A DNA stretch of 64,000 nucleotides from Corynebacterium poyangense (GTDB taxonomy: Bacteria > Actinomycetota > Actinomycetes > Mycobacteriales > Mycobacteriaceae). Made by a program: the position numbers and the translations under genes. Positions 29,095 through 46,215 of the stretch are shown here, piece by piece (positions within the stretch are counted from its first letter, which is position 1; each line of letters opens with the position of its first letter). The stretch covers positions 1,426,001 through 1,490,000 of the forward strand of contig NZ_CP046884.1 of assembly GCF_014522205.1 (NCBI RefSeq), given 5' to 3'. Below the pieces are notes generated by a model, which was not told the DNA's origin, did no database searches, and saw only the letters and a program-made list of their open reading frames with translations.

Positions 29095-29107
29095 GAGGCT
29101 TGAGACC

Positions 29108-29155
29108 ACACCAGAACCGGGGTTAGTTTACAACGACCAACCCCGGTTCTGGTGT
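29108..29155 (+). terminator. Terminator after ptsH
   Basis: A perfect 17-bp inverted repeat (29108-29124 and 29139-29155) with a 14-nt loop lies 13 bp after the ptsH stop. It can also serve the convergent uracil permease gene. Confidence 0.9.
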
Positions 29156-29186
29156 ATCTTCGGCTGGAGGAATTATTGAGGAAGTG

Positions 29187-30491
29187 TTAATAGCGCGCGG
29201 ATTGTCCTTCTCCCACGTGACTATAGAGCCATTTAAGGACCGGGTAGGCCACAATAATTCCACCTGATCCCCAGGCAATGCCTTCTAAGTTAAGAGGTCC
29301 GACGGCCAAGGTGAGGTTGCCGATACCTGCGATTAACGCTATAGCTGCGGTGGTTAAATTAACTGGATTATTGAAATTGACCTTATTGTCCTGCCAAATT
29401 CGGATACCGAGCATTCCGATTAAACCGTAGAGAACAATAGTGGCACCGCCTAAAACCCCGGTGGGGATGGTAAAAATAAGCGCCCCGAATTTAGGAATAA
29501 AAGCCAAAGCTATGGCGGTGAAACCGGCCACCCAATAAGCCGCCGTTGAATACACCCGGGTGGCTGCCATAACACCAATATTTTCGGCATAGGTGGTAGT
29601 TCCGGAACCACCGAATCCACCGGCTAAGGTTGTGGCTAAACCATCACCAAAAAGCGCCGTGCCAGCGAGGTCATCGAGATCGCGGCGAGTCATTTCACTA
29701 ACGGCTTTTACGTGGCCGACATTTTCTGCAATTAAGACAATGACCACAGGTAACGCCACTAAGATGGCAGACGCGGAGAATTGCGGAGCGTGGAACGTAG
29801 GAAACCCGATCCATGGAGCATGTGCAATAGCTTGGCGCGAGCCCTCAGCAAGATTGCCAGTGACGGCGGCGAAAATCCAACCCACCACGACGCCAATAAG
29901 AATTCCTAGGCGTGAAATCATGCCGCGGCCAGCAACAGTCGCCACAATGATCACCACCATTGTTACCGTGGCTACCAGTGGTTGAGCCTGAAAATTTCCG
30001 GTTGCTGCTGGCGCTAGATTCAGCCCGATGAGTGCCACGATGGCACCTGTGACCGCTGGCGGCATGACCGCGTCGATAACTCGTCGGCCTGCGATTTTCA
30101 CCAGAATACCGACGCCCATTAACACGAGACCGACAAAAAGCACCGCTCCAGTCTGAGCGCTAGGACCTTCTGCCTGGCTAGCTGTAAGCGGAGCTATGAA
30201 CGCAAACGATGATCCCAAATATGAGGGAAGTCGATTCCGGGTGAGGAGAAGAAAAATGAGCGTCCCCAGGCCGGAAAACAGCAAGGTGGTATTGACGGGG
30301 AATCCAGTGAGGGTAGGCACCAGGAGAGTTGCCCCAAACATGGCAATGACATGTTGCATACCAATGCCAATAGTGCGGGACCAGTTCAATCGTTCCTCTG
30401 GGGCTACGACCCCACCTGGTTCAATATGTTGTCCGTCGCCGTGAAGCGACCAGCCAAATAGTCGACCCGGAGATTCAGGTTGCTTAATCAC
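29187..30491 (-). CDS. uraA: Uracil permease, NCS2 family
   Basis: A 434-residue transporter with 12-14 membrane segments. NCS2 signatures are the QHVIAMFGATLLVPTL opening helix and the AENVGHVKAVSEM segment, whose Glu-Asn-x-Gly-H motif is typical of uracil/UraA members; SGTTTYAENIGV is the second conserved loop. I place the start at GTG 30491 because TATAAT (30498-30503 on the minus strand) ends 6 bp upstream, giving a leaderless message; a start at 30536 has no ribosome site. Uracil versus other nucleobase specificity rests on family likeness. Confidence 0.88.
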   Translation of the reverse strand: MIKQPESPGRLFGWSLHGDGQHIEPGGVVAPEERLNWSRTIGIGMQHVIAMFGATLLVPTLTGFPVNTTLLFSGLGTLIFLLLTRNRLPSYLGSSFAFIAPLTASQAEGPSAQTGAVLFVGLVLMGVGILVKIAGRRVIDAVMPPAVTGAIVALIGLNLAPAATGNFQAQPLVATVTMVVIIVATVAGRGMISRLGILIGVVVGWIFAAVTGNLAEGSRQAIAHAPWIGFPTFHAPQFSASAILVALPVVIVLIAENVGHVKAVSEMTRRDLDDLAGTALFGDGLATTLAGGFGGSGTTTYAENIGVMAATRVYSTAAYWVAGFTAIALAFIPKFGALIFTIPTGVLGGATIVLYGLIGMLGIRIWQDNKVNFNNPVNLTTAAIALIAGIGNLTLAVGPLNLEGIAWGSGGIIVAYPVLKWLYSHVGEGQSARY

Positions 30492-30503
30492 GACCTGATT
30501 ATA
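30492..30503 (-). promoter_or_regulatory. -10 element for leaderless uraA
   Basis: A perfect TATAAT at 30498-30503 (minus strand) with six bases to the GTG start. The -35 region is weak, which is common in corynebacteria. Confidence 0.65.
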
Positions 30504-30642
30504 GGAGGAAAAATGACGTGGTGCTTTGTGGGGCAATCAGAAGGATGAGGCGGCTATTTATCTCGTAGCGAGATTCCTCGCCGATACCGCGGTTGTAGAG
30601 AAGGTGACAGCTGTACTCAATGGGAGGGCAACAGCAAAGGAA

Positions 30643-30717
30643 CTATGATTCACTAGTTTCTAGTTTCAGGATTCCAGTTTTTAGTAAGGGGGCTGCACTC
30701 AACACCATCCCGGCTAC
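30643..30717 (-). pseudogene. 3' relic of an MFS transporter gene
   Basis: Reads VAGMVLSAAPLLKTGIL plus a distinct tail, then stop. It matches the C-terminus of the intact transporter at 42.4 kb (IAGMVLSAAPLLKTGIL). Homology stops abruptly at 30716. The relic marks the left edge of the accessory island. Confidence 0.8.
30664..30716. repeat. Left copy of 53-bp direct repeat
   Basis: Identical at 50 of 53 positions to 42391-42443, in the same orientation. The two copies bracket the accessory island. Confidence 0.9.
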
Positions 30718-30733
30718 AAAAGAGGTTTACCTG

Positions 30734-31084
30734 CTAATCCTGGGGACTTTCATAAAGTGACCATCCAAAGTCAGGTTCGTCATTAACTTCATAGAAGTCT
30801 ATATATTCACCGTGTAGTACATGTAAATCCCAGTAGCCATCTTTTTGCAAACAGGCCAGCATTACTGCGTAATCTCTACCCTCAGCAACATCATTTGACC
30901 ACGTGATTACCTCTTGCACGGATGAAGCATGCAGAATTCTATACGAGGAACGCAGAAACGTTTTACCCTCGATGGGATCCGGAGAGGTTTCCTTCCAAAA
31001 GAAAACCCAATACTCTGGATGATCTAGAAAACGATTTGAATATCTTAGTGAAGTATTATCCGGCTTAAATTTCTCAATCTCCAT
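30734..31084 (-). CDS. Hypothetical protein, small acidic aromatic-rich
   Basis: A 116-residue soluble protein, rich in Trp, Tyr, Asp and Glu, with no signal peptide or membrane segment. I do not recognise the family. The size and composition (WDLHVLHGEYIDFYEVND near the C-terminus) resemble immunity proteins of polymorphic toxins, but no toxin gene is adjacent. The upstream neighbour is the recombinase, 72 bp away on the same strand. The ribosome site is weak. Confidence 0.55.
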   Translation of the reverse strand: MEIEKFKPDNTSLRYSNRFLDHPEYWVFFWKETSPDPIEGKTFLRSSYRILHASSVQEVITWSNDVAEGRDYAVMLACLQKDGYWDLHVLHGEYIDFYEVNDEPDFGWSLYESPQD

Positions 31085-31156
31085 AAAATCCGTCCTTATC
31101 TATCCTGCAATTTACTAAATGAATTCATAATATTTGACTACCTAAGAATACTTTTG

Positions 31157-31723
31157 CTATTTAGTATCAGCCAGGTACTTATACAAAGTAGTACGTCCAA
31201 TGCCTAGACGTCTAGCGACCACGGCTTTAGGCACCCCTTGGTCTACCCATTGTTTCGCTTGAGAGACTTGGGCAGGGGTTAATACTTTCGCTCTGCCTTT
31301 ATACACCCCCCGAGCTTTCGCTTTCGCAATCCCTTCTGCCTGACGCTCACGAATAATTGCTCGCTCAAACTCAGCAACCGAACCTAACAACCCCAACATC
31401 AACCGGGATACAGGAGACGATGTTGCTGAATACACCTGTCCTTCTTTTAAAAACTTCACCGACACACCCCGACCGGTGAGCTCATCAATAAGGCCATACA
31501 AATCCACCAAAGATCTCGCAAGCCGATCCATCGAGACCACCACAAGCTGATCCCCCGCCCGGAGATAACGCAACGCCTCATCCAACTTCGGGCGTTTCCG
31601 TACCGACCCGCTCACGGTGTCTTCAAAGATCGTAAACACCTGTTCTTGATCTAAAAGATCACGCTGCCTATCAAGGTTTTGATCTTTCGAACTTACCCGC
31701 GCATTAGAGGAGTTCTTGCCCAC
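31157..31723 (-). CDS. Serine recombinase (resolvase/invertase family), altered N-terminus
   Basis: A 188-residue small serine recombinase. The catalytic Ser is in ARVSSKDQNLDRQ (about 8-20). The Arg-rich active-site segment VVVSMDRLARSLVDL (about 61-75) and the long E-helix are present, and the C-terminal helix-turn-helix ends SKAVVARRLGIGRTTLYKYL-like. Before ARVS, family members have about five residues ending GY; here it reads GKNSSN, as if the first strand was replaced. It lies inside the left end of the island and is the only recombinase seen. Activity is uncertain. Confidence 0.82.
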   Translation of the reverse strand: MGKNSSNARVSSKDQNLDRQRDLLDQEQVFTIFEDTVSGSVRKRPKLDEALRYLRAGDQLVVVSMDRLARSLVDLYGLIDELTGRGVSVKFLKEGQVYSATSSPVSRLMLGLLGSVAEFERAIIRERQAEGIAKAKARGVYKGRAKVLTPAQVSQAKQWVDQGVPKAVVARRLGIGRTTLYKYLADTK

Positions 31724-32021
31724 TGGGCTACTTCAACTCCTTGGTCTGTCTTGGTTATTACCTGAGAAACCATGACATGTGAAATGTTTTTGACATTTGG
31801 TATAATTGGTCCCCGTTGAGCAAAACGTATTACTATACCCACGCCTATTCTATTACATTCATCGTTTGCTGTTTTTATCGGAATCCCTTATTTCGCTATC
31901 GCAATGGAGGGAATTGCGGTCTATTGTAAGATTCCCACTTCTATGGTAGGTGACGAATTAAGTAGAATCATCAAAACAATTTTTGGGGAAAGAATTAGTG
32001 CTTTTACTATAAGGAGATCGC
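31724..32021. other. AT-rich intergenic region, recombinase / membrane protein
   Basis: 298 bp between divergent genes. TATAAT occurs at 31801-31806 on the plus strand without a well-placed -35. An AAGGAG ribosome site at 32011-32016 serves the downstream gene. No other feature seen. Confidence 0.4.
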
Positions 32022-32591
32022 GTGACTAAGAATTTAAAACCGCGTGGACGAAATAAGTTTGAGGCAACGGTCTTCGCCTATGGACCGACGAGACTGATAA
32101 TGAGTATGTTTTTTTCAGTAGGATTCATTCTAATTGTTTCGGTTGCTGATGGTGTTTATTCTGTAGTGTGGGGCGTGATTTTTTTACTCACTGCAACGGC
32201 GGCTTCACTGTTTAATGTCACTGTTCGTGTGACCGTATCGGGTGATGTGAGGGTTTCAGTGTTAGGGATTCGAATTTTCCGCGATTCGGCAACGGATATT
32301 GTGGCTATTACTCGGCTTACTGATGCTGATAAGTCGTGGTCGACGAAAGTGTCTTTTGGCCTGTACTTCGCGGGCATCCGTACGTTATGGGCGGCTGCTG
32401 GTATTCCCGTTGTTCGTATACAAGGGGAGCGGAAATCGGTGATAGTTACGGTAACGAAAATAGATGAGTTTGTTGACTGCGTGGCAAAGTGTCAAGGGAA
32501 AGATCCCAGCGAAATCTATCGGGAGTCTACTTTCATGCGACAAAGCGCCAAATCCGAAGGGCGAATCGGTAACAAGAGCCGTCTGATGTAG
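32022..32591 (+). CDS. Hypothetical membrane protein, PH-like C-terminal part
   Basis: A 189-residue protein with a GTG start and an ideal AAGGAG 5 bp upstream. Two hydrophobic segments (about 28-45 and 48-68) are followed by a beta-rich part with alternating hydrophobics (FNVTVRVTVSGDVRVSVLG), like membrane-associated PH-type or DUF1648 neighbours. The C-terminus is basic. I do not recognise a named family. Codon frame and ribosome site look genuine, so it may be one of the few intact island genes. Confidence 0.6.
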   Translation: MTKNLKPRGRNKFEATVFAYGPTRLIMSMFFSVGFILIVSVADGVYSVVWGVIFLLTATAASLFNVTVRVTVSGDVRVSVLGIRIFRDSATDIVAITRLTDADKSWSTKVSFGLYFAGIRTLWAAAGIPVVRIQGERKSVIVTVTKIDEFVDCVAKCQGKDPSEIYRESTFMRQSAKSEGRIGNKSRLM

Positions 32592-32819
32592 ATCCGGTTG
32601 ACTTTCTAAATGTGCAGTGATGGGTTTTCAGGGGAATTATCGCATTGAGTCCCGTTGAACTCATCTGAGTAGTGCTTCGGTATGATCTGGTCCTCTCACG
32701 AATATGTTGGCATAGTTACGGAGAATCAATACACCGCCACCAGATCTCTTTAATCGTAGGCTGCTTTCCCTCAACAAAATACCTGGTTCGCAAAGCAATA
32801 CGGCGTAGCTATCTGGTCA

Positions 32820-33146
32820 TTATTTACGCAATCCTAGAGTCATGTAGCGCAACGTGAGCGGCGTGATAACCACACATTCCGTGAGCTCCACCCCCGGAGA
32901 GGGTGAGTCCGAGCAGAGGAAAATACCGTTATGCTCTGTGGAGTAGGGATTGACAGAGATACGAGGTAGAAAGATGAGCTGTTTGAGTGAATTAGCGCCG
33001 CCTATTATGTTGCCACCGATATAAAAGGCAGTTCCCCGAACATCCAAGAAGCAACTATGGGCCCCCCAAGGCTCTAAAACGATTTGAGCTTTTACATGTA
33101 CAGGGCGCGAAAAATGAAACCTGTGTTCATAAACCGATCCCCGCAC
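32820..33146 (-). CDS. Possible small hypothetical protein
   Basis: 108 residues from GTG 33146. A GGGAGG sequence is only 1-2 bp from the start, too close for a good ribosome site. The product is hydrophobic in places with three Cys and no family likeness I know. It may be a relic or chance frame. Confidence 0.25.
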   Translation of the reverse strand: MRGSVYEHRFHFSRPVHVKAQIVLEPWGAHSCFLDVRGTAFYIGGNIIGGANSLKQLIFLPRISVNPYSTEHNGIFLCSDSPSPGVELTECVVITPLTLRYMTLGLRK

Positions 33147-33269
33147 CCCTCCCTTAAGGGATCTAGTCTCGATACACTATATGTTCTTTTAGACAATCAC
33201 AGAGAACCCCTGCCCAGAGAGTGAGTGTGGGAAGGGGGCTTTTAGGGCTTGTTGCTAACAGGAAGAGAC

Positions 33270-33321
33270 AAAGACCTAATCACTGCAATTGGCCACCCTG
33301 AGAGGGAGTGATGAGGTCTTT
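33270..33321. repeat. 15-bp inverted repeat, possible structured RNA
   Basis: AAAGACCTAATCACT (33270-33284) pairs with AGTGATGAGGTCTTT (33307-33321) with one mismatch, around a 22-nt loop. The outer flanks GTTGCT and AGCAAC also pair. It lies downstream of the ParB-like gene. Confidence 0.6.
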
Positions 33322-33373
33322 GAGGTACAAGCAACAGACTTTTTGCTGTCTACCGAACCACCCACTCACAATA

Positions 33374-33395
33374 TGTTCGTGCCATAGCATGAACA
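33374..33395. repeat. Palindrome next to partition genes
   Basis: TGTTCGTGC and GCATGAACA pair 8 of 9 around CATA. It could be a partition-site or operator element of the neighbouring par genes. Confidence 0.4.
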
Positions 33396-33426
33396 TGCTT
33401 ACGGACGATCATGTTTTATGCCGGTG

Positions 33427-33648
33427 TTACCGGATCGGATCTCCTGCTTCATTGATTCCGTATCGTTCTTGAAGGATCGATGACAGCATGGCTGAAGTAT
33501 TCGTCTGCTTGTCGAAGGCTTCATTTTTTAATTCTTTTAACAACGGGGCTGGCACATAAAAAGTTGTTCTTTTCTGGGGATTCTTTCGTGCCGGAAGAGT
33601 TTCAATAACCTTTTTTGCTTGGTTTGCTCGCGGATTTTTAAAGCTCAT
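33427..33648 (-). CDS. ParB-like ribbon-helix-helix partition protein
   Basis: A 73-residue small basic protein. I take ATG 33648, since GGAG lies 6-7 bp upstream; the frame is open to 33666. The C-terminal half (KRTTFYVPAPLLKELKNEAF...SAMLSSILQERYG) has a beta strand and two helices, the layout of ribbon-helix-helix DNA-binding proteins that act as centromere binders in plasmid ParA systems. The start overlaps the 3' end of the parA relic, which is the normal parAB arrangement. It may still be intact although its partner is broken. Confidence 0.6.
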   Translation of the reverse strand: MSFKNPRANQAKKVIETLPARKNPQKRTTFYVPAPLLKELKNEAFDKQTNTSAMLSSILQERYGINEAGDPIR

Positions 33649-34231
33649 CTTCATCTCCAAATGCATTAACTATTTCAGATAAAACATCGTCGTATCCATA
33701 CAGCTTCTGTAGAACTCTCCCATATTCTCGTGCAATATCCACCTTTTCAGGAATACAGGAACGGAACGTTTCCACTCCCCAATTTTCAATAGTTTCTCTT
33801 GCTTCAATATAAAGCTTCGAATTGAAACCCACGTGAGTAAGAAGAACACCAACAGGCTTATCTCCTATCGCATCCAGAGTAGGAATAATACGAGCTACAT
33901 CTTACGGTTTCGGAGAGGTGGGGATGATTATAAAATCAGCTACGTCTAAAGCTGACTGGATTTCTCGCGGCGATCCTGGTGGAGTATCCATAATAGATAT
34001 TACTCCTTCAGGAAAACGCAGTCTCTCTATATCAGTCGCCGTCGCAGAGATGACTGCAAAGGGAAACCCCTTCTCCCGATCAGTAGCTTCCCGCGCCCAA
34101 GAGAAGCAACTTCCCTGTCGATCCAGGTCAGAGATTCGCGCACTAAAGCCGCGCCATTTGGCTGCCAGACCAAGAAAAACGCTGAGTTGTTTTCCCACCC
34201 CGGCTTTAGTGTTCACTATCGCGATAATCAT
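33638..34231 (-). pseudogene. parA: parA plasmid-partition ATPase, inactivated
   Basis: A ParA/Soj-type ATPase. The N-terminus MIIAIVNTKAGVGK starts like a deviant Walker A, but the essential Thr/Ser pair after Lys is replaced by Gln-Leu. Walker B-like ISIMDTPPG follows. An in-frame TAA at 33902-33904 cuts the protein after about 109 residues. The same frame continues as DVARIIPTLDAIGDKPVGVL... to 33638, giving a full length near 197, typical for small plasmid ParA proteins. Two independent lesions make function very unlikely. Confidence 0.8.
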
Positions 34232-34663
34232 ACCCTCAAAAATGCTCTCACCAGCAGTAATTCCTACATGTTAAAACCTGCACATGCTAAAACTTGAAAA
34301 GGCTATAACATGATAGTGTTCTTCTAACCCAGAACTACACCTGAACTAACGAGAACTTCACTCGAGTTCACGGAGAAAAAGACCAAACTTGCCAGAGGTG
34401 TGCTTATCTCAAACAGATCACCTACACTCATGCCTATGCTTTCTCCCAGATGGTGACTGGGAGTTAAGCGAAGCCTGGAGCAGATGTCGACTGCCCCGGG
34501 CTTCAACTATTCATCAGTATCGGACTCAGAATAACACCAATGATATTCCAGAGAGATCCTCAACATGAGACTCTTCCCAGAAGAAGAACATATGGATGTA
34601 TGTGCATATGAACATACAGTTGAATCTGTTCTAGTTAAATAGAACTTACTTGCATGAACAGAG
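34232..34663. other. Intergenic region upstream of parA
   Basis: 432 bp. It holds the 16-bp-spaced direct repeats at 34266-34296, a hairpin (CTCCCAG/CTGGGAG, 34443-34463) and a CATATG-rich stretch near 34588-34616. No gene seen. Confidence 0.4.
34266..34296. repeat. Direct repeats upstream of parA
   Basis: ACATGTTAAAACCTG (34266-34280) and ACATGCTAAAACTTG (34282-34296) match at 13 of 15 positions with a 16-bp period. They lie about 35 bp upstream of the parA start, where an autoregulatory or centromere site is expected. Confidence 0.6.
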
Positions 34664-34843
34664 TTATTCGAGTGCCCACTCTTCCCATAATTGGCAAAGG
34701 CTCGTGTCGTCTTCAAGAGCGGCAAGCTTCGCTTGTTTTAGAAGATCTTTATCCTTGACGTATAGACGTAAGGTTGCCGTTCGCTCCTGAAATCCAGCAA
34801 GAGGAGCCGATTTTATAGCTTTTCTCGCCTTATTGATTTCCAC
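34664..34843 (-). CDS. Small DNA-binding-like protein, plasmid-type
   Basis: 59 residues from GTG 34843. It contains a basic helix (NKARKAIKSAPLAGF), then ATLRLYVKDKDLLKQAKLAA and SLCQLWEEWALE. A beta strand followed by two helices resembles ribbon-helix-helix partition or copy-control proteins. The frame stays open upstream to a stop near 34900 without a better start, so the gene may be truncated. It lies directly downstream of the methyltransferase relic. Confidence 0.4.
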   Translation of the reverse strand: MEINKARKAIKSAPLAGFQERTATLRLYVKDKDLLKQAKLAALEDDTSLCQLWEEWALE

Positions 34844-34871
34844 GGAATTTGCCGACTTTAAGGTTAAAATA

Positions 34872-35334
34872 TCAGTTGAGCAAAACTCTCGCCTTTAAAT
34901 ATAAGCCATATAGGATTAAAGCCTCAATTATGAATACTCTGTCTTGTGAGAGAGTTTGATACGCATTCAAGAAAGTCTTGATTTGTGCATCATAATCTAA
35001 AGCTGAATAGATTGTATTGCAGACAAGTATACAAGCATCGTTTTCATCCTCACCTATTAATTCAATTGCAAAATCACACAGGCGGGCTTTCTGACCTAGC
35101 GTCCGATTTTTCATTCAGTCTGTCTAGCATTTCTCTCGAATTGTCTACCCCTTTCACAGAATAGCCCTGATTGCTCAGCGGTCTTGCTATTCGCCCGGTT
35201 CCGATTCCAAACTCGAAAATATTTGATTCTGGACTTCAACGGAATAAACAGTACGCAACATTGACTGAATCACTATAATCTGGATATAAAAGATCATATA
35301 TTTCCGCAAGTTCACGGTGATAAAACTGGGTCAT
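34872..35334 (-). pseudogene. Class I SAM methyltransferase relic
   Basis: From ATG 35334 the frame reads MTQFYHRELAEIYDLLYPDY, then meets TGA at 35236-35238, then continues FEFGIGTGRIARPLS (SAM motif I) and GYSVKGVDNSREML (motif II). A frameshift near 35115 moves to a frame giving ACILVCNTIYSALDYDAQIK and FLNAYQTLSQDRVFIIEA, the post-I and beta5 segments. The gene is truncated after that. It resembles small-molecule or RiPP-tailoring methyltransferases of the methyltransf_25 type. It lies downstream of the peptide operon on the same strand. Confidence 0.75.
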
Positions 35335-35399
35335 GACTTCATCCTAAGTGAACAGTCATATTCGTAGTATCCGATTTAGCTCCCTGATGTTGCATCCCG

Positions 35400-35633
35400 T
35401 CACTGGGAAAGCAAAGTAAAGATATACGTCGCCGTTTTAAGGCTGAGTGCTGGCTCCCTACTTCTTAGCTCCTTGATTGCGGTTACAGGCGACTTGCGTG
35501 GATCAATATTTTTGTCCTCAAGGACGGACCGCGCCCAGGCTACGCTTGCCTTTTTAGGGTCGTGTTCTTTTCCGAATATAAGGTTTATTTCTCCAATAGG
35601 ATTCGTGGAGTCGCCGAAGATTCGAGATCTCAT
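35400..35633 (-). CDS. Third gene of small-peptide operon, unknown
   Basis: A 77-residue soluble protein whose ATG directly follows the stop of the upstream 46-residue gene. The C-terminal half SPVTAIKELRSREPALSLK resembles the helix-loop-helix of ribosomal L7/L12 C-terminal-like domains (VIKxLRExTGLxLKEAK), though this likeness is by eye. No signal peptide. It is possibly an immunity or accessory protein for the two peptides upstream (inference from position). Confidence 0.5.
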   Translation of the reverse strand: MRSRIFGDSTNPIGEINLIFGKEHDPKKASVAWARSVLEDKNIDPRKSPVTAIKELRSREPALSLKTATYIFTLLSQ

Positions 35634-35774
35634 TTAAACTGTCTCCCCTCTAGCGGACGATGCCATGACAGATGTTATCGGTAAGATTGCGGGTGCCTCA
35701 TCCTCACTTACGGTGTTGAGTTCAATCACCGTGCTATAGGAGGAATATCCTTTGATTGGTTCTACACTATTCAC
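35634..35774 (-). CDS. Putative 46-residue precursor peptide
   Basis: GTG start with AAAGGA 9 bp upstream. A leader-like first part (VEPIKGYSSYSTVIELNTV) is followed by an acidic SEDEAP stretch and a small, hydroxyl-rich end (AILPITSVMASSARGETV). The size, acidic hinge and Ser/Thr-rich C-terminus fit a RiPP precursor. TSVMASSA recalls the SVMA start of thioviridamide-type cores, but the C-terminal Cys of those is missing. It is tightly packed between the interrupted peptide gene and the 77-residue gene. Confidence 0.45.
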   Translation of the reverse strand: MNSVEPIKGYSSYSTVIELNTVSEDEAPAILPITSVMASSARGETV

Positions 35775-35777
35775 TCC

Positions 35778-35990
35778 TTAACATCCTTTCATTAGTGGTC
35801 CAATAGCACTTCCGCCGACCATTGAAATGCCCCCGCCGCATGCGAAGGAAGATTCTCCAATGAAACTTAAGATTCCTGGCGTTGCTGGAGCAACTCCAAC
35901 ATGAATTATTACTAGTTCTTATTCCGACGCATAGGCAGCATAACCAGTTACAAGATCTTGAGTCCGACTTGAGGCAGTTGTCCGGTTCAC
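35778..35990 (-). pseudogene. Bacteriocin/RiPP-like precursor peptide gene with internal stop
   Basis: From GTG 35990, with AAGGAG 8 bp upstream, the frame codes 23 residues ending YAAYASE, meets TAA at 35919-35921, and continues in the same frame for 46 residues to a stop at 35778. The second part is rich in Gly, Ser and Ile with two Cys (PGILSFIGESSFACGGG and a C-terminal LMKGC). A 70-residue precursor with a short leader and Gly/Cys-rich core is the simplest reading. If the stop is real it is inactive. Confidence 0.5.
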
Positions 35991-36468
35991 GACTAGATCT
36001 CCTTAAGATTAAGTTGGTTATTCCTGGTCCATGCGGAGCCGGAGTGGGATCTCATATGACACTGATCATTGTGCATGACGCTTGGAACTTAGAACTGCAA
36101 CCGATAATACCCCGTTTCTCGAATTGAGAGATGGATCATGTATACCCCCCCGGAGAAAGCTCCTACTTGGGAAGACACCTAATAAAGGTATGGGAAACAA
36201 TAATATAAAGGAAACCTTTAGGATTCATACTTAATCAGAATGTCACGGCAGCCTGAGAGGGGTTATCAACGTGAGCTTGGATTGTTCTATTTAGACAGTA
36301 CATCAATGAGATCTTGTGGAAGACTAGATTTTAAATAGTTCACATTGGGTTATAAATAAGGAAAAATGACAGATACACAATAGCAAATTTCGCAACCTAT
36401 AGTAACGTTTGGTACTATTCATAATTTTATCAAGGCGGTAAAGCGTAACACTATAAATATCTCCTAGT
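35991..36468. other. Upstream region of peptide operon
   Basis: About 480 bp. AAGGAG at 35999-36004 (minus) serves the first peptide gene. The rest is AT-rich with no convincing gene on either strand; promoters for the operon should lie here. Confidence 0.4.
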
Positions 36469-36735
36469 TTAATACCCCTTCCCCAAGATAAAGTATTGCT
36501 CGTTGGGAGGTGTAGTGGGTTTTTTCATGATTCTTCTCATATAGCCAATATCCCCTCCGAGAATGTCGCATAAGCCGGTTTCGATGCGGCAGAGCAGGTT
36601 CACGGGGCATCGAGCAGCAGCATTAGTCACACAGACGGGGTTACTAAGCCGTAGACAATATGCCCGGTAACTACCGGCCTGGGTGAGCGACAGCCCAGGT
36701 TGGTGCTGGTAAACCACTTGATAATGCGAGGTCAC
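36469..36735 (-). CDS. Possible degenerate WhiB-like protein
   Basis: 88 residues. The central part AAARCPVNLLCRIETG followed by LCDILGGDIGYMRR recalls the WhiB core (CxxCPVxxxCLxYAxETG..GVWGG..R), but the Cys two residues before CPV is absent and the GVWGG turn reads DILGGD. The N-terminus overlaps the next gene in another frame. It may be a relic of a phage or plasmid WhiB-like regulator, or a chance frame. Confidence 0.3.
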   Translation of the reverse strand: MTSHYQVVYQHQPGLSLTQAGSYRAYCLRLSNPVCVTNAAARCPVNLLCRIETGLCDILGGDIGYMRRIMKKPTTPPNEQYFILGKGY

Positions 36736-36949
36736 GGATGTCGGTGTTATCGACGTCGGTGACGGTCAAGGACTTTAAGCAGGCGGGGTTTGACTCAATC
36801 ATCGGCATGCCCACGGCCTTAGTCCGGCTGGTGCGCCTATAGGGTCCGGCTTTCTCCAACATGGCTAGCGGGACATATAGCCGCCACAGATCATCGAACA
36901 AAGCGAGCTGTTCGGCCTCATCGAGGTGTGCGATCTCGTCTGGTGTCAC
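36671..36949 (-). CDS. Hypothetical small protein
   Basis: 92 residues beginning MTPDEIAHLDEAEQLALFDD, an acidic amphipathic helix of a kind common at the N-terminus of plasmid and phage proteins. The rest has no motif I recognise. The 3' part overlaps the possible WhiB-like frame, and one of the two is probably frameshifted or spurious. Confidence 0.35.
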   Translation of the reverse strand: MTPDEIAHLDEAEQLALFDDLWRLYVPLAMLEKAGPYRRTSRTKAVGMPMIESNPACLKSLTVTDVDNTDIRDLALSSGLPAPTWAVAHPGR

Positions 36950-37140
36950 TGGGGCCTATAGAGTCATGTCCAAAGCATGACACAAAGCGTGAGGGACAGA
37001 TTCTGAGAAGACAGCAGTCACTAAACCTTAACTTCAGCATTCTTAAAACTGCCCGGTACTGTTTCCAGTCAGATACAAAATAGCTTGAAACAAATCTACT
37101 TCCTAAAGGAAGGAACACCGTTTATTGCTTACGGTATAGC

Positions 37141-37609
37141 TCAATTCTTACGCGGAGCGCTCCTACGTCCTCTAGGAAGGGAGACTCCAGCAGTTCGAAG
37201 AGCTCTATTTACTGTCTGCCTAGACACATTGAACTCATTCATCGCATCAGCGATAGAAGGATATTGTCCGGTCTGTCCGTAAGTATCGAGGAAGTACCCA
37301 GCTATCTTGGAACCCTTGCCCTTTGCTAACAGCTCCACGTCGATTATTGGCTTGTCGAAGTTTGGTTCGTTGTCTTTGTGCGTGTTCTCCTTGAGGTTCG
37401 TTCTTCCACCTCTGCGCTGCTTTCTGCCCACCTCTACGGCCCATCGTGGCGAGCGCTTTACGATCACGAGTGTTGCCGCGGAAATAGGCGCAGAAGACTT
37501 GCCGGTTCTCTGTGCTGAACTTGTCTTTCTGCTTAACACGTAGCCACGTACACGGCGTGCCATCGTCTGGCGATCTCGCATCGGGGCATCTCTGGGGATC
37601 TACCATCAC
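37141..37609 (-). pseudogene. repB-like plasmid replication gene, frameshifted
   Basis: Two overlapping frames make one protein. The first (from 37609) gives MMVDPQRCPDARSPDDGTPC and FCAYFRGNTRDRKALATMGRRGGQKAAQRW. After a shift near 37380 the second gives FDKPIIDVELLAKGKGSK, then SIADAMNEFNVSRQTVNRALRTAGV, a clear helix-turn-helix. Corynebacterial theta plasmids carry a small DNA-binding Rep gene directly after repA, overlapping it, as here. It is inactivated by the frameshift. Confidence 0.7.
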
Positions 37610-38523
37610 TACCTACTTGTTGCGCAACGTTATACCCGTGTTCATAGGCATCAATAAGCAAGTTATCTTTCATCCGCTGACCAGAAGATCTAAGTCGGTG
37701 ACCAGTTTTCAGTGCGTGTCGAAACGCGGTTTCATCCCGCGCTGCACGCCTCTTACTGATCCACAACACCCTCACTCCATCAATCAGATCAGGGTCATAT
37801 TGGTCAAGTTTGTCGCCTAACTCGCTGACCACCTCGCGAGCCAACTTGTAAATTGCTTCAGCTTGTTCACGACGGGCTTTCACTGCTTCGATCAATTCCC
37901 GTCCGCCACTAAACCGCTGATATCTTTTCTTCGGCTCAGGGGTACCAGTGATCTCTTGAAGCTGTGCCATCAAATCACCCACCGGGTTCACGCATTTATG
38001 CTGACAGTACCAACGATAAACCGTTGGATCTTTCCCCTCATAAAACGGGGAACGGCTAAAACCATGAAAAATGCGGGTCATACCCGAGATACTCACCCAA
38101 GGCCTGAGTTGTTGCAGCAAGCAACCGCATATGCCGCGAATCCCCTACTGCAGGATTCGCATATGCTGGGTCAATCAACCACAATGCTTGAGCTTTGCCT
38201 GACAAGGGGTTAATTCCTACCCATGCTGGACCTATATTACGTTCTACTAGCCCTGCAAGCTGCCACCCCACATCTATAGCTAGATGCACCGGATGTCCAC
38301 CGCTTTCCCCGGATATGTCAATATCAACCACAATCACTGAAGCATGCTTTTTCGAGGTCAGACTCACGTACAGGCACTTACTAAACGCTCTTGTTCCTAC
38401 CCGGTACACACGAGGTTTTGTTTCCCCGTGTTGGTCTTGGTAAAACGCCTTAGAAAAGTTCCGTTCTGCGCATCCTTGCAGCACCTCGCATCCAAGATGA
38501 GCAAGCAGATGCTCCCGATCCAA
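37533..38523 (-). pseudogene. repA plasmid replicase gene, frameshifted
   Basis: The first part (38523 to about 38065) gives LDREHLLAHLG, IVVDIDISGESGGHP and GPAWVGINPLSGKAQALWLID; the second frame continues GFSRSPFYEGKDPTVYRWYC to 37533. Together they match replicase (RepA/pAL5000-type) proteins of actinobacterial theta plasmids. The shift lies near 38060-38080. The first frame stays open upstream to a TGA at 38611-38613 with a protein-like reading, so the true N-terminus may be longer and also interrupted. The only in-frame start seen is TTG 38523. Confidence 0.75.
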
Positions 38524-38645
38524 GATACTTCCAGGGGTATCATCTAAACCTCCTGTAAAAAGGGAAGACGCTAACCCCGGAACAGAATATGGCCGTGCCG
38601 GTGTACCCGTTCAAGACATGGGACCACCCAAGGAACCGAGTACCG

Positions 38646-38674
38646 GTATTCGGAGTGTGCGCATTTGTATTCGG
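38646..38674. repeat. GTATTCGG direct repeats between repA and YfbU gene
   Basis: GTATTCGG at 38646-38653 and 38667-38674 has a 21-bp period, two helical turns. The pair lies between the repA relic and the YfbU-type gene and could be part of a plasmid origin or the operator of the YfbU gene. Confidence 0.4.
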
Positions 38675-38700
38675 TGATTCACCTTGGTCAGGTTAGGTTC

Positions 38701-39304
38701 ATGCAGACAACTACTCTCCGCGTTCCCGATGATCTCCGAACCCTCATTGCCGAAGCAGCAGAAGCAAATAGGCAGTCCCAAATCCAGCCGCCCAAGGGCA
38801 TCTTCCTAAAGAATCCTATGACGCGACATGGCACGAACGTGCTATTGAAGTGTTGGAACATGTTTATGAAGGGGAATACCCCCAACTATTTCCCAACCAC
38901 ACTGACACTCTCAATGCATATGAGTGCGAGCTGGTCTGGGATATCCTCGACATGTTTAGGGTAATCCACTTCAGCGTGGAAGCGCTCGGTGAAAACGGGT
39001 GGGATGCTATCGGCGTCGAAAATGCCGAATGGTTCGGCAGAACGCGAGAGTCAGATGGCTGTCTACACGGAATACCTAGTTAAGAACGGCCGGTGGACTG
39101 AACAAGAAGAACTCATAAGAGAAGGAACAAACTCCCACAGACAAATGCTTCCGACTTATCAAGTCATGCTCGGAGCTTTCAAACCAATATGGCGCGAAGC
39201 AGTACGCGGAAGCAGTACGCGGAGGAGGGCGCTCCTATCTCAGCGCTCAAGATCTACGAAAAATCCTGCTCGCCGCCCCAGGCACACGGTGTGATGAAAC
39301 CTAG
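38701..39304 (+). pseudogene. Ribbon-helix-helix/YfbU-domain protein gene, frameshifted
   Basis: It starts MQTTTLRVPDDLRTLIAEAA, a ribbon-helix-helix antitoxin-like N-terminus. After a shift near 38785 the frame gives EVLEHVYEGEYPQLF and LNAYECELVWDILDMFRVIHFS (YfbU domain). A second shift near 39045 gives ESQMAVYTEYLVKNGRWTEQ and YQVMLGAFKPIWREAVRG. A 13-bp tandem duplication (39198-39223) then breaks the end; removing one copy restores GGGRSYLSAQDLRKILLAAPG to TAG at 39302-39304. At least three lesions. It lies just upstream of an Abi gene. Confidence 0.8.
39198..39223. repeat. 13-bp tandem duplication causing frameshift
   Basis: AGCAGTACGCGGA occurs twice in a row. Deleting one unit restores the YfbU reading frame to a natural stop, so the duplication is a recent inactivating mutation. 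Confidence 0.85.
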
Positions 39305-39418
39305 AGACATGCAAGCAATTTATTGCCCGAAAATATCAATAACCCCGGCGATGTACTCCTACTTTCGTAGTGCAGGGATCGCTCCGGGGCTTTCAATACG
39401 AAGGCTAGCATATCCATC

Positions 39419-40054
39419 ATGACTAGTCCAAGTCCGAACCCCGTACCACTATCTCAGTGGTTTTCACCTGCACGAATGAGCCGGTACGTCGGACACCCAG
39501 AACCAGAAAAGCTATATCTTTGGAATACTCGCCTCACAAAGACCTATCTCGCAGACATCGAACACCTTGAAGTGCTCCTCCGAAACTGCATCCACGATGC
39601 TCTAACCAGCAGATACGGCGACCGGTGGTTTGACAACCGTCGAATATCTTTCAGAGAAATAGCAGAAAGGAACATCAGAAAAGCGAAAAGTCGGGCCAGA
39701 GGGAGACAAGCGCCACCAGGAAAAATCATTGCTGAGCTCAGTTTTGACTTCTGACGCTACCTCCTAACTAACTATTATCAGGCGAGCGTCTGGCCTCAGG
39801 TAGAGAAGGCCTTGAAGAAAAGACCCGACAGCAGACAGCAGTTCGAAGGTTATGTAGACATTGTCTACAAGATGAGAAACAGGTGTTCTCACCACGAATC
39901 AATCGTCCAACAACACGATATAGCCAGTGAAAACACATATCTCGACTTCGTCGACAACGCCATCCACATGGTGACGGATTTCATTGATCCTGCTGCCGCG
40001 ACATGGATCAAGAAGAATTCCCAAGTCCGCACCATACGAGCACAACGACCTTAG
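39419..40054 (+). pseudogene. Abi-family (HEPN) protein gene with nonsense codon
   Basis: ATG 39419. The first 111 residues (RMSRYVGHPEPEKLYLWNTRL, LADIEHLEVLLRNCIHDAL) match Abi/AbiD-F-type abortive infection proteins. TGA at 39752-39754 interrupts FDF-stop-RYLLTNYY, exactly where family members have a conserved Trp (FGFWR.L), so TGG to TGA is the likely change. The frame continues to KMRNRCSHHESI, the HEPN RNase R-x-x-x-x-H motif, and ends at 40054. Without the stop the protein would be 210 residues long. Confidence 0.8.
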
Positions 40055-40315
40055 TCGTATACTTAACTGGCCAAGTTATGAATTCCTTTATCAAGGCCTT
40101 CACCGTTTTCATAAAAATCGTCACCTTAAAAACTAGCAGCTAGTACAAAAACATCAACGATTAGCCGCGGCGGACGGCGGGAGGTAAAAGTATATGACTT
40201 GGATAAACTCTGATTTAACCTTCCTGGCGGAGAACAGCCTCTTATTAAGACTATGTGCAGCCCAAATTGTGCTGCACATAGCTGAAGCTTTCCAGTGTAT
40301 CCGTGCGCTCATATG
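40055..40315. other. Intergenic, Abi relic / secreted protein
   Basis: 261 bp between convergent genes with an 11-bp perfect hairpin (CTATGTGCAGC at 40251-40261 with its complement at 40271-40281, 9-nt loop). It may terminate transcription from either side, although no strong T-run follows. Confidence 0.5.
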
Positions 40316-41509
40316 TTAACTGCACGAGAAAGAGAAATCTTTGTCGATCGGAAGAACAGTAGTTGCCACTTTAAACGTATCCCCCATACGAGAGAACCAC
40401 GAGTTCTGTGTCATGTCATCATAGCCAATAAGAGGGGTAAATTCTCCCTGACAGACAGGCTCCAGCAATTTGATAGGCATTACCGCCTGCTTATTTTCTA
40501 TATCATCAGGGCGAACTACTATATACGCAAGGGATCCTTCATATGTTATAGATATTGGGGAGGGGCCACTGATGTTTAAATGAACTCTATATTCCTCAGC
40601 CCCCGTAGTTAAATTGATTGATGATAAATCATTGTTTCTATCTAAGGAAAATAGCCTATTGTGCGAAATGCTCGAAAAACGAGCCAAAGCTGGTGGAGTG
40701 TAATTTGATAGAGTCGCTTGTTTACTAGCTTCTGTAACTCCATCCTTATCGGTCAACAGAAGAGATATAGCGTCACCATCTTTATCTTCAGTAACTATAA
40801 TACTCTGATCAGAATTACATGATAATCGGTTTTCAGGTCCAGGTTCATACTGAAAATCCCAAGATATCGGAGATATTTTCACACTATCATCTAAATTCCA
40901 GGTGACAATATTAGCTGTTCCCCGATCCTCATTCAGATCTCCATCGTCAGGAATAAACTCAATCCATTTTAATGTTCCGTCATTACAAACAGTCGGGCTG
41001 CTAATATGATCTTTTCTGTCAATGGACCTAATTCCGTTGGAATTAACTGAAACTACTTTTACGGAGTGAGGAGACGTGGTACTGCCTGTATTAAATAAAA
41101 ATGCTCCACTCTGATGATTATCGGAAACTGAAGAAGTACTCTGCGTTCCAATACCCAATCCAGTCACCGGGAATGTTTTCTGGAGATTAAGGTTCTCATC
41201 TACCAGATGAATCGAATTTTCGTCAGGAACGGCAAAACTTTTTCCTATCCGGATAATTGAAGGAAAATATGTCGGCGCCAGTGAAAAAGCAATACCACCG
41301 TCTCCGTTTTTTGAAGACCAAAATACATTATTTCTATCACTATCAGTTAGAGGCCCGATGGTTTCAGTCGAAATACCTATATAGATTGAATCTTTCATTC
41401 CACCATTAGGAATTTGCTGATCTTTTGAACCTCGTAACCACAAAATAGAAATAATACTTAATATAGCCACCAAAGCAACAACCGCAAATCCAATCTTTTT
41501 CTTTATCAA
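40316..41509 (-). CDS. Membrane-anchored or secreted protein of unknown function
   Basis: A 397-residue protein. The N-terminus IKKKIGFAVVALVAILSIIS is a signal anchor or uncleaved signal peptide without lipobox. The remainder is beta-rich and repetitive in style (repeated hydrophobic strands split by Asp/Asn/Ser turns), as in beta-propeller-like extracytoplasmic proteins; this is a judgement by eye. The TTG start at 41509 overlaps the TGA of the upstream amidase-like frame, so it was coupled to it. It appears intact although its partner is broken. Confidence 0.55.
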   Translation of the reverse strand: MIKKKIGFAVVALVAILSIISILWLRGSKDQQIPNGGMKDSIYIGISTETIGPLTDSDRNNVFWSSKNGDGGIAFSLAPTYFPSIIRIGKSFAVPDENSIHLVDENLNLQKTFPVTGLGIGTQSTSSVSDNHQSGAFLFNTGSTTSPHSVKVVSVNSNGIRSIDRKDHISSPTVCNDGTLKWIEFIPDDGDLNEDRGTANIVTWNLDDSVKISPISWDFQYEPGPENRLSCNSDQSIIVTEDKDGDAISLLLTDKDGVTEASKQATLSNYTPPALARFSSISHNRLFSLDRNNDLSSINLTTGAEEYRVHLNISGPSPISITYEGSLAYIVVRPDDIENKQAVMPIKLLEPVCQGEFTPLIGYDDMTQNSWFSRMGDTFKVATTVLPIDKDFSFSCS

Positions 41510-41510
41510 T

Positions 41511-42025
41511 TAATTACCCTTGTATTGTGGGAACGAAGAATATCGAGCGGATACACTGCAGGCTGATAAGGCTCATATGGATACCTCTCGCCAATGTCCA
41601 ACCCACCTCCGGATGCATGTTTATATGCCGCCCACACAAGTTGAGAACAGTTGTATGAATCCCTATCAATTTTACCGATTCGGGTAGCAGCAAAGTTACT
41701 TTCGTATCCTTTCCCTACCTTACTTTCCGCCCAACTTGCAGCCCTATCTCATGTGTGTCCGTATTAACAGACAGGTAAGTAGGCTGACACACGCCAATTC
41801 GTTCGCTTCCCTTTAATCTCTGAACTACAGAATCGAAACCTATCGCCTCAACCGTAGTTATCTTCGATGGATCTTTATTACCCTGACTAATAACGATACC
41901 ATTGTGCTGGTAATTAATTCCCCTTAAACACACAGCTTTTGAAAAGCCTAAATCACGTCGGCCAGTGCATTGACTACCTGGCAGTACAACAACAGCCCCG
42001 CCACAACCAGTTCCAGGAGTGTGAA
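41511..42025 (-). pseudogene. NlpC/P60-type (YycO-like) amidase gene, frameshifted
   Basis: Read on the minus strand, one frame gives AVVVLPGSQCTGRRDLGFSK, then LRGINYQHNGIVIS (conserved His). A shift near 41735 leads to SWAESKVGKGYESNF and DSYNCSQLVWAAYKHASG, the catalytic Cys block of YycO/YiiX-type permuted papain-like amidases. The end AVYPLDILRS is also typical. The 5' end meets TAG near 42027 after another shift. These enzymes cut peptidoglycan peptides or lipids; this copy is inactive. Confidence 0.7.
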
Positions 42026-42372
42026 GAAAATTCTATTGTCACGCTCTCACCCTCACAGACAAGAACCAATTCTTCCTCTAGTCGTAAACTAAAAAATCCC
42101 TCATCTCGCAATCATCATGTGATCTCCCCCAAAAAACCATCTTTCCAGTAGTTACTTATCGTGCCGAATAAGAACAATCATCACACGACGTGATTAAGAC
42201 ACTCCTTCAACGCCTCCTGGTCCACTTCACTAGGCGTTAACCCGGATTAGTGGCCAGATTATATATCTGGGTATTAAGTTCATCACTCTGGAGATAAACG
42301 GTAGTGGTATGTTTCTGGCTTCAGACTGAATTATATCGACCATCTGAGTCGTAATTAATGACTCATAAATCA
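42026..42372. other. Region between amidase relic and MFS transporter
   Basis: About 350 bp. The part to roughly 42120 may hold the degraded 5' end of the amidase gene (minus strand EEELVLVCEGESVTIEF). The rest shows nothing I can assign. Confidence 0.4.
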
Positions 42373-43632
42373 CTATTCATTAATGTCGAATTTCAGGATT
42401 CCGGTTTTTAATAACGGGGCTGCACTCAACACCATCCCGGCTATGGCACTAATAAGAAGCACGTCAGATGGTTCGATAATCTTTAGCACTATGCCGGATA
42501 GAGCCATGCCCACGGGTGCGAGAACAGAACTAACACCGGTTTGAAGAGCAAACACTTTCCCCTGATCCGTTTTGTCAAACTGTTTCGAGACAAAATGAGT
42601 AAAAAACGGAGAGGAATAAGCACTAGCAAAAGAAGAAGCACATTTAGCGCTTATCGGCCATAGCCCAGGACATCCCAGCGCTATCAACCCACTGGCTAGG
42701 TAATCACCCAATGACCCAAACACAACACCGAAGCCTGGAAACCTCGGAGACCGATATATCTTGGCACCTAACGCACCGAGCACCAACGCACAGACACCTA
42801 AAGACTGATACGCCCCTACAACCGTGGAATCGTATTTATCTACCAAGACTAGAGGCAACGCCACGCTCATTACTCCCCCGCATATCGAACCAATCATGGA
42901 GGTGACTGCCCACAGCGGAAGCCACGAGGATCGGCGAGACACGCTCATCAGCTGCGACCATTGCGCATACACATTCAACTTACTTAAGACATCACCATAT
43001 TTTCTAGCACCCACCCCATCTTTTTGTTCCATAACTCGGGGCTCAACCACACATCTCACAATCAACGCCGTCACAAGAAAAGACACAGCGTCAATCACTA
43101 GTCCCCACCGGGAAAGACCAACAGCAATCATGATGCCGCCCGTAGCAGCACCTAGGGACAAGGAAATCCTATTAACAAGAGAATTAGTAGCAAGCACGTC
43201 TTTTAACCTGGACGCCGGAACCAATTCCGCCCACAATGACGCTAGCGCCGGACGAAAGTACCCAGCACACATCCCATTAGTAAAACACCCCAGCAAAATT
43301 AATGGTAACGAGGCATAGTTATCTACCAGAATGCCGGCGAGCACTAAGAGATTGGCTATGCCTCGCAACAGATCACTTTTAACCAGAATGCCTACCCGAG
43401 ATCCATGATCGGCATGAACCCCTCCCGCAGCAAAGGATAACAACATTCCCACCGCTAACGACGTCAAAGCAACGCTAGTTCCGGTTCCTCCCAAAGAAGA
43501 CGCAACAGCGATTGTCAGGACCACCCCAGTCAATCCGTTACCGAAAGATCCTATTATCGACGCCCATCGCAGACGATACAAATCACGAGAATGAACAGAA
43601 TCAATTTTCTGCAAATCAGAAATAAACAGCAT
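42373..43632 (-). CDS. MFS transporter
   Basis: A 419-residue major facilitator with 12 predicted segments, a GxxxDxxxR-like loop after TM2 (GGVHADHGSRVG) and the MFS_3/enterobactin-exporter-type layout. It is probably a drug or small-molecule exporter; the substrate is unknown. The last 20 codons contain the right copy of the 53-bp repeat. The gene is intact and transcribed toward the island. It could belong to the island or be the host gene at its edge. Confidence 0.82.
   Translation of the reverse strand: MLFISDLQKIDSVHSRDLYRLRWASIIGSFGNGLTGVVLTIAVASSLGGTGTSVALTSLAVGMLLSFAAGGVHADHGSRVGILVKSDLLRGIANLLVLAGILVDNYASLPLILLGCFTNGMCAGYFRPALASLWAELVPASRLKDVLATNSLVNRISLSLGAATGGIMIAVGLSRWGLVIDAVSFLVTALIVRCVVEPRVMEQKDGVGARKYGDVLSKLNVYAQWSQLMSVSRRSSWLPLWAVTSMIGSICGGVMSVALPLVLVDKYDSTVVGAYQSLGVCALVLGALGAKIYRSPRFPGFGVVFGSLGDYLASGLIALGCPGLWPISAKCASSFASAYSSPFFTHFVSKQFDKTDQGKVFALQTGVSSVLAPVGMALSGIVLKIIEPSDVLLISAIAGMVLSAAPLLKTGILKFDINE
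42391..42443. repeat. Right copy of 53-bp direct repeat
   Basis: 50 of 53 identical to 30664-30716. It lies within the 3' end of the intact MFS gene. Confidence 0.9.
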
Positions 43633-44023
43633 AATTTACCCGTTAGTCGCAGCTAGGGCGGTGACTATCTCATTACTAATGAGAAATCGTTGATTAACCC
43701 AATCACAAGCTACTCCCTCATTCAACGCCAGGAAAATTTCAACAGCACCTCAACAAAGACGTACCAGAATTTTTCCCGATAATAGTTCGCACATTACGCT
43801 ATTTCCACTCCCTCAGTAGTCCCAACACTAACTCCTAATCTAAAAACCTGACTAACGTCCTTTTAGCGCCTACTGTCACAACCATTAGTGTGAGGAGAAT
43901 CCTCTCCTACCTTCGACTTTTGATCATCTTTCCGAGCAATCTCGCCCTGATAGCTTTTAGTGTCTCCCTATCGATTTTTGGTTATCCTCAGGAAGGTAGC
44001 CCCAGTCGAGAAGGAAATGAACC
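43633..44023. promoter_or_regulatory. MFS / PTS divergent intergenic region
   Basis: 391 bp, AT-rich. It holds the promoters of the divergent MFS gene and the PTS operon. A GGAGA/TCTCC mini-palindrome lies near 43888-43904, and a GAAGGA ribosome site precedes the EIIA ATG. No gene seen. Confidence 0.4.
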
Positions 44024-44467
44024 ATGGCCGAGTTAGCTCTCCCCTTACACCGCATCGTCGTCGGCTCTCATACCGAGTGGAGCCACGCTGTCCGTTCGTG
44101 TTTATCTCTTCTAGAAAAAGACGGCCTGATCACCTCCACCTATTCCAATGCTGTGATCACTAGCATCAAATCAGGAGAGGGCTTATACATGGATCTAGGA
44201 TATGAAGTCCTCTTGGCACATACACGGCCTGAGCAGGGCTCACTCGGTGTGGGGCTAGCCCTAACGGTGCTTGATTCCCCGGTCCTCCTTAACGGGGATC
44301 AGCGACACCCCATTCGACAAATCTGGGGACTGTGCGCTCTCGACTCTCATTCTCATCAAGAGCTCATGGCAAATTTCGCCAAGGTGCTGATGAATGAGGC
44401 TATTCGTCAGAAAATCTCGCAGGCGACTTCGGCTACGGAGATCCACGACCTCATATCTCAGGCCTAG
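44024..44467 (+). CDS. ulaC: PTS EIIA component, ascorbate/mannitol type
   Basis: A 147-residue EIIA-2 domain. The phospho-His is His66 in VLLAHTRPEQGS, the counterpart of the PHARP motif. It is expected to pass phosphate from HPr to the EIIB encoded next. Genes for EIIA, EIIB and EIIC follow in order, 44 and 22 bp apart, as a three-gene operon. ulaC is used for its resemblance to L-ascorbate systems; the real substrate is untested. Confidence 0.8.
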   Translation: MAELALPLHRIVVGSHTEWSHAVRSCLSLLEKDGLITSTYSNAVITSIKSGEGLYMDLGYEVLLAHTRPEQGSLGVGLALTVLDSPVLLNGDQRHPIRQIWGLCALDSHSHQELMANFAKVLMNEAIRQKISQATSATEIHDLISQA

Positions 44468-44511
44468 CAACAGACCCCTGAGTTGAACTTGTCCACGAAA
44501 GGAAACCGAAG

Positions 44512-44793
44512 ATGAAATTCATGGCAATGTGTAGTTCCGGTCTAGGTTCTAGTTTTATGGTGGAGCTAAATATCAAAAACGCCCTCCAAGAATTGGGAGT
44601 TAACGACGCTGAGGTAACGCATTCTGATCTTGGTGGCGCCTCTCCGAATGATGCCGATGTTTTTGTCATCGGCAGAGATTTAGCTGATGCCACTGATCAT
44701 TTCCCCAATCGGGTCATCCTTGACAGCATCATTGATAAAGCCGAACTGAAAAAGAAACTCGCTGCGGTATGCCAAGAAAAAGGACTTCTCTAA
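44512..44793 (+). CDS. ulaB: PTS EIIB component, ascorbate type
   Basis: A 93-residue EIIB. The phospho-Cys is Cys7 in FMAMCSSGLGSS, the P-loop-like motif of ascorbate/galactitol EIIB proteins, followed by the typical Rossmann-like beta-alpha pattern. A GAAAGG ribosome site lies upstream. It partners the EIIC encoded 22 bp downstream. Confidence 0.85.
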   Translation: MKFMAMCSSGLGSSFMVELNIKNALQELGVNDAEVTHSDLGGASPNDADVFVIGRDLADATDHFPNRVILDSIIDKAELKKKLAAVCQEKGLL

Positions 44794-44815
44794 TTAACTT
44801 CAGTGGGAAACAATT

Positions 44816-46186: not shown

Positions 46187-46215
46187 ATAGTTCGACGCCC
46201 AGGTCTCGATGTTGA

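Follow-up and report, generated by a model that had tools for sequence, protein, structure and literature searches.

Two related MFS gene ends and apparent plasmid remains between them at the uraA-hflX locus of Corynebacterium poyangense

The stretch of the Corynebacterium poyangense genome considered here (NCBI RefSeq assembly GCF_014522205.1, contig NZ_CP046884.1, positions 1,426,001 to 1,490,000 of the forward strand) is 64,000 nucleotides long and is called the window; all positions are counted from its first letter. It contains a direct repeat which, according to a first-pass annotation of the sequence, brackets a decayed island of 11.7 kb. The copies, 30664-30716 and 42391-42443, lie in the same orientation and are identical at 50 of 53 positions; on recomputation, the coordinates, orientation and identity that had been claimed were reproduced exactly. 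BLASTN enlarges the pair to 30648-30716 and 42375-42443 (69 bp, 61/69 identical, E 8.9e-19). Both copies are 3' ends of minus-strand MFS transporter genes; they are read in the same frame, and their stops fall at almost equal positions. The left one is a bare 3' end, of which just the last 74 bases are left, and the right one completes an open gene, as the first-pass annotation had stated:

30643..30716, minus strand: 3' end of a second MFS gene, encoding AGMVLSAAPLLKTGILKLETSES followed by a stop; contains the left repeat copy (30664-30716, extended 30648-30716)
42373..43632, minus strand: open MFS transporter gene, 419 aa (PF07690, E 8e-21), ending GILKFDINE and stop; contains the right repeat copy (42391-42443)

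The differences between the copies are of the type expected for two homologous genes. The 53 bp hold 17 shared codons, and all three differences are synonymous; as 26-29% of random changes at these positions are synonymous, three out of three would arise by chance with a probability of about 0.018-0.025. Beyond this block the tails, GILKLETSES on the left and GILKFDINE on the right, each followed by a stop, still align in frame, with 11 of 16 bases identical and the residue pairs L/F, E/D, T/I, S/N and E/E (left/right). Homology stops abruptly on the gene-5' side, at 30716 as had been described, and fades gradually on the 3' side. Counted outwards from the edge at 30716/42443, identity per 9-base block is 9, 9, 9, 7, 8, 8, 6, 6, 3, 3, 2, 1 and 2. 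This is a break on one side and, on the other, a fade as in two genes that diverged as genes. The longest perfect run shared by the copies, 28 bp, adjoins the sharp edge.

The pair is the sole direct-repeat family in the window that reaches 30 bp (repeat search, exact seed 14), and no other flanking repeats of that length were found by the same search. Compared with the whole 2.62-Mb one-contig genome, the left copy matches at these two places alone. When the DNA of the MFS gene was searched against 242 Corynebacterium genomes (the source genome included), the pair was found in the source genome only; the second genome matched, G032, has 33 bp inside the gene (E 2e-4). The dyads at the repeats share no common element: the left copy has one 7-base pair 62 bases apart, and the right copy has four nearby pairs. 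A tRNA search of the window found none.

The DNA between the copies is of plasmid nature and is decayed. The recombinase, plasmid genes and relics that the first-pass annotation had placed there are all present by Pfam and PHROG searches and by comparison with plasmid proteins, and its decayed island can now be named as the remains of pGA1-type plasmid replicons. From left to right, the features of the island and its left edge are:

30517..30648, plus strand: tail of an open frame with its stop, 43 codons (from the sequence), convergent with the left MFS frame
30734..31084, minus strand: open reading frame (ORF) of 116 aa beside the abrupt repeat boundary; 17 of the 241 other Corynebacterium genomes and one plasmid record contain relatives
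31157..31723, minus strand: small serine recombinase (resolvase) of plasmid type, N-terminus altered (PF00239, E 2e-37)
32022..32591, plus strand: ORF of 189 aa, membrane-like by eye; a 120-aa version, 98% identical, lies on another contig
33427..33666, minus strand: Arc-like small DNA-binding protein, likely a ParA partner (phrog_2639, E 3e-6)
33647..34237, minus strand: parA pseudogene with an internal stop, by sequence comparison
34438-34518, plus strand: copy-control antisense RNA ctRNA_pGA1 (Rfam RF00236, 57.9 bits, gathering cut-off 45, E 2e-9)
34423-34476, minus strand: short piece of a rep start beneath ctRNA_pGA1 (Rep residues 7-24, E 7e-4)
34667..34894, minus strand: relic of a second ParA-partner gene, 55% to the pCdoos1 gene between parA and rep
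35077..35235, minus strand: methyltransferase fragment (PF13649, E 6e-7)
36469..36949, minus strand: possible second Rep relic, in pieces (PF03090, E 2.8e-4 and 0.16, both below the cut-off)
37153..38601, minus strand: rep pseudogene over three frames (PF03090, E 5.5e-22); its two main pieces are about 50-60% identical to plasmid Rep
38701..39283, plus strand: YfbU-family pseudogene (PF03887), with a relative on pCdoos1
39419..40051, plus strand: Abi-family pseudogene with an internal stop, 46% to the Abi protein of pLEW279b
40316..41509, minus strand: open gene from the ORF list, 397 aa, lipoprotein-like by eye
41509..42017, minus strand: 3' part of a frameshifted gene with a C92-amidase-like end (PF05708, E 9.5e-5, below the cut-off)

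The features of pGA1-type plasmids are thus represented by ctRNA_pGA1 (Rfam search range 28000-47000), a PF03090-type Rep and a ParA, both broken, and a small partner protein. The rep pseudogene is 53-56% identical among the matches listed, which come from 15 of 51 plasmid records; the possible second Rep relic was not matched by either of two plasmid RepA proteins. Since one small partner gene adjoins parA and the relic of a second lies nearby, the island likely preserves parts of more than one par set, and pCE2 is a precedent for a plasmid with two par-rep sets. By its gene content, the middle of the island would be what is left of one or two decayed corynebacterial plasmids of the pGA1 type. 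Independent replication is unlikely, because both rep and parA are broken. At the DNA level, a megablast comparison of 30500-42600 with plasmids and phages gave zero matches.

The resolvase is at most 77% identical to corynebacterial plasmid resolvases. In the alignment a stop lies upstream and the GYARVS motif is changed to SNARVS. Within the YfbU pseudogene, at 39196-39223, a 13-base unit is repeated 2.2 times, likely a slippage scar of decay, and a self-complementary, terminator-like stretch of 31 bases (40251-40281) separates the Abi relic from the 397-aa gene. The 116-aa ORF at 30734-31084 has a distant relative in genome G132, where it sits within an open frame of 1057 codons.

At the left edge, the plus-strand frame at 30517-30648 and the left MFS frame share their last six bases, like packed convergent genes. 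By eye it had been guessed to be the C-terminus of a protein like the EIIA component of a phosphotransferase system (PTS); Pfam, plasmid and genus searches gave this no backing. Pfam found nothing, the plasmid records held nothing at E 1, and 23 of the 241 other genus genomes gave weak matches at E 1, the best of them at E 0.02 and in unrelated-looking frames of 515 aa.

The right-hand end of the island differs in character, and 40316-42017 would represent a broken cassette of chromosomal type. What is left at 41509..42017 is the last third of a gene, in pieces 52-80% identical to genes of genomes G033 and G066; the first two thirds of this gene were not found. Its relatives carry repeats recognised by eye as LGFP-type. 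The 397-aa gene and the C92-amidase-like gene adjoin in G033 and G066, both single-contig genomes, and relatives of the 397-aa protein occur in 22 of the 242 genomes at E 0.001, the source genome included. A separate protein search with the 397-aa sequence gave no match above 52%, copies shorter than 55% of its length being outside the candidate range of that search.

The island lies between uraA and hflX. For comparison, 60 loci were examined for flanking genes. Leaving aside nine from Rhodococcus/Rhodococcoides, two from G132 and two MFS loci, 47 Corynebacterium loci were kept, some of which may represent the same species twice. In all 47, the hflX match lies at most 862 bases from the uraA match; the nine Rhodococcus/Rhodococcoides loci have a different arrangement. 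The uraA-hflX interval is a spot where the genus varies. A ulaCBA-like PTS operon occupies 44024-46186; its position between uraA and hflX is common to G132 and is seen at none of the 47 Corynebacterium loci. G132 alone gave a strong DNA match to this operon (72% over 1.8 kb), and a match of any kind was found in 19 of 201 genomes, the source genome included.

G132 is the nearest syntenic relative, albeit a distant one. Its order is uraA, gntR, ulaC, ulaB, ulaA, hflX, with neither an island nor an MFS gene between uraA and hflX; its sole MFS match in the protein search, at 26%, lies on a different contig. DNA similarity to G132 ends at 30467 and restarts at 44306. The gntR gene of G132 type has no tblastn match in the window at E 1, and partial relatives only (26-48%) elsewhere in the C. 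poyangense genome. As G132 has no island or MFS gene and differs outside the repeats too, the foreign tract seems, on this comparison, broader than the part that the repeats bracket. The check suggested in the first-pass annotation, whether an empty site holds a single MFS 3' end, gave no support: the absence of an MFS gene from the locus in this distant relative limits that model, although it does not refute it, and the repeats are thus not established as insertion borders.

The MFS family itself is rare. The protein was searched against 201 genomes, the other 41 of the genus being covered by DNA only. Matches at E <1e-30 were found in four genomes, namely the source genome, G100, G196 and G106 (29%), and at E 0.001 in 12. 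G100 and G196 have full-length relatives at 45-47%; judged by eye from the ORFs, that of G100 lies beside ribosomal-protein genes and that of G196 beside an rpoC-like gene. A protein of Corynebacterium felinum (P0003) is 47% identical. Much closer matches come from one further contig of 525,244 bases, which encodes both a 262-aa protein (P0001) that is 99% identical to the MFS transporter and has the FDINE tail, and a 120-aa protein (P0035) that is 98% identical to the product of the ORF at 32022; both gene calls are shorter than those of the window. As two near-identical proteins lie on the same contig, a second assembly probably shares part of the island together with the right-hand gene.

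Taken together, these observations can be explained in several ways. With moderate confidence, the repeat is read as coding sequence common to the 3' ends of two MFS genes that diverged as genes, with the wreck of one or two pGA1-type plasmids, followed by the broken chromosomal-type cassette, captured between them at uraA-hflX. On this reading, two related MFS genes with a common orientation would once have stood here; plasmid DNA would have inserted into these genes or between them; and, as the sharp edge suggests, the left gene would have lost its 5' part to a deletion that had 30716 as one of its ends. Two long-diverged gene ends are favoured over a single attachment (att) site because of the synonymous changes, the in-frame alignment of the tails and the fade on the 3' side. 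Of the two explanations that the first-pass annotation had offered, paralogous transporter genes are hence favoured, and attachment sites are not supported, given the lack of a PF00589 match inside the island and the plasmid type of its small, N-terminally altered resolvase.

Several points weigh against two diverged genes. The former full left gene is deduced from 74 bases, and the pair occurs in no other of the 242 genomes. The order of events is likewise a deduction. Given the rarity of the family, two copies at one locus would be unusual, and no MFS relative stands beside the ula operon of G132. Moreover, a sharp edge with an adjoining perfect run of 28 bp also resembles a site-specific crossover at the 3' end of a gene.

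A less likely explanation, though the best placed of the alternatives, is that a circular plasmid carrying a homologous MFS 3' fragment integrated by one homologous crossover within the common 53 bp. The right copy would then consist of the chromosomal gene body with a plasmid tail, and the left copy would be the displaced chromosomal tail. The plasmid genes between the copies, the topology and the synonymous differences all agree with such an event. Nevertheless, the MFS protein has no relative at E 1e-10 in 72,556 plasmid records, a search for distant matches to the DNA of 40100-43660 found nothing in plasmid records, and the right-hand cassette of the island occurs in single-contig genomes of relatives. 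In addition, 53 bp at 94% identity is short for homologous recombination.

That the repeats are attL and attR of an integrative element which targets the MFS 3' end and substitutes its own copy is somewhat more doubtful still. Integration at a gene 3' end would leave just such an abrupt edge on the gene-5' side; the 28-bp perfect run lies at this edge, and the gene on one side stays open while the other side is a bare tail. However, none of the four PF00589 (tyrosine-integrase) matches in the genome falls inside the island, large serine integrases not having been searched as a separate family. PF00239 has three matches in the genome, one of which is the island resolvase with its plasmid-resolvase relatives; this recombinase, 0.4 kb from the left copy, is of plasmid-resolvase type and has an altered N-terminus. 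Dyads at the repeats are either short or confined to the right copy, the repeat is found in no other of the 242 genomes, and attachment sites do not require the homology of the tails that continues past the core. A variant, in which the 53-bp copies would be att sites of an undescribed plasmid-derived element that replaced the MFS 3' end by means of a resolvase-like or lost recombinase, is improbable. Chance or low-complexity similarity is refuted by the E value of 8.9e-19, the uniqueness of the pair, the same reading frame and the near-equal stop position.

Whichever origin applies, recombination between the copies is topologically possible, with the 28-bp perfect run as the longest identical stretch available to it, and would delete the island. 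Since frame and orientation agree between the copies, the product would retain a single open MFS gene in all models.

Compared with known systems, nothing here is categorically new. Plasmids of the pGA1/pCE2/pCdoos1 type likewise carry ctRNA_pGA1, Rep, ParA, partner genes, a resolvase, and YfbU and Abi cargo; the island differs in being chromosomal, with many genes broken, a rearranged order and two partner genes. Comparing the island with the ORFs of six plasmids, among them MobF, revealed no relaxase; transfer-protein families were not part of this search. Actinomycete integrative and conjugative elements (AICEs) resemble the island in having chromosomal replication genes bracketed by direct repeats at a gene 3' end. 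In contrast to AICEs, the island has no tyrosine integrase in the PF00589 search, and no transfer gene was recognised in it, again without a search by transfer-protein families. Passages of one account of AICEs (PMC3218068) give their layout as att-tra-rep-int-att, and state that most use tyrosine recombinases and the 3' ends of tRNA genes, while some use serine recombinases and protein genes. The right-hand MFS protein matches PF07690 and also TIGR00900, a family of efflux-type proteins, although its TIGR00900 score is below the cut-off and its nearest full-length relatives reach 47%. A search of the openly licensed literature with a few query words found no paper on this locus.

The region is more reminiscent of commonplace genomic debris than of a demonstrated mobile element. 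It illustrates clearly how plasmid replicons decay within a chromosome, here in an interval that varies across the genus, and it cautions that a direct repeat flanking an island is not necessarily an att pair; beyond this, little changes.

Such debris is not unique to C. poyangense, as other genomes carry pGA1-type ctRNA and Rep remains as well. ctRNA_pGA1 is found above the cut-off in 35 of the 242 genomes and at E 0.001 in 44, the source genome included. Five other places were examined, in G093 (2.43 Mb contig), G068 (2.45 Mb), G158 (2.00 Mb), G062 (577 kb) and G071 (174 kb), the first three on chromosome-sized contigs with ctRNA_pGA1 above the cut-off. Rep remains or genes lie nearby in four of the five, none being seen in G068; on chromosome-sized contigs, ctRNA_pGA1 together with Rep remains was found in two other Corynebacterium species, at G093:C1:267872-267949 and G158:C1:1697003-1697080. 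Direct repeats occur in all five places and do not bracket the Rep match in G093, G158 and G071. In G062, a 249-bp direct repeat of 69% identity (L207 7867-8108 and 13438-13679) encloses a resolvase match and one of the Rep matches. This pair could be read in favour of either a gene-pair or a recombination model; because both copies are open in the same frame, it has the appearance of a homologous coding-gene pair that flanks plasmid genes, and may be a parallel to the MFS pair.

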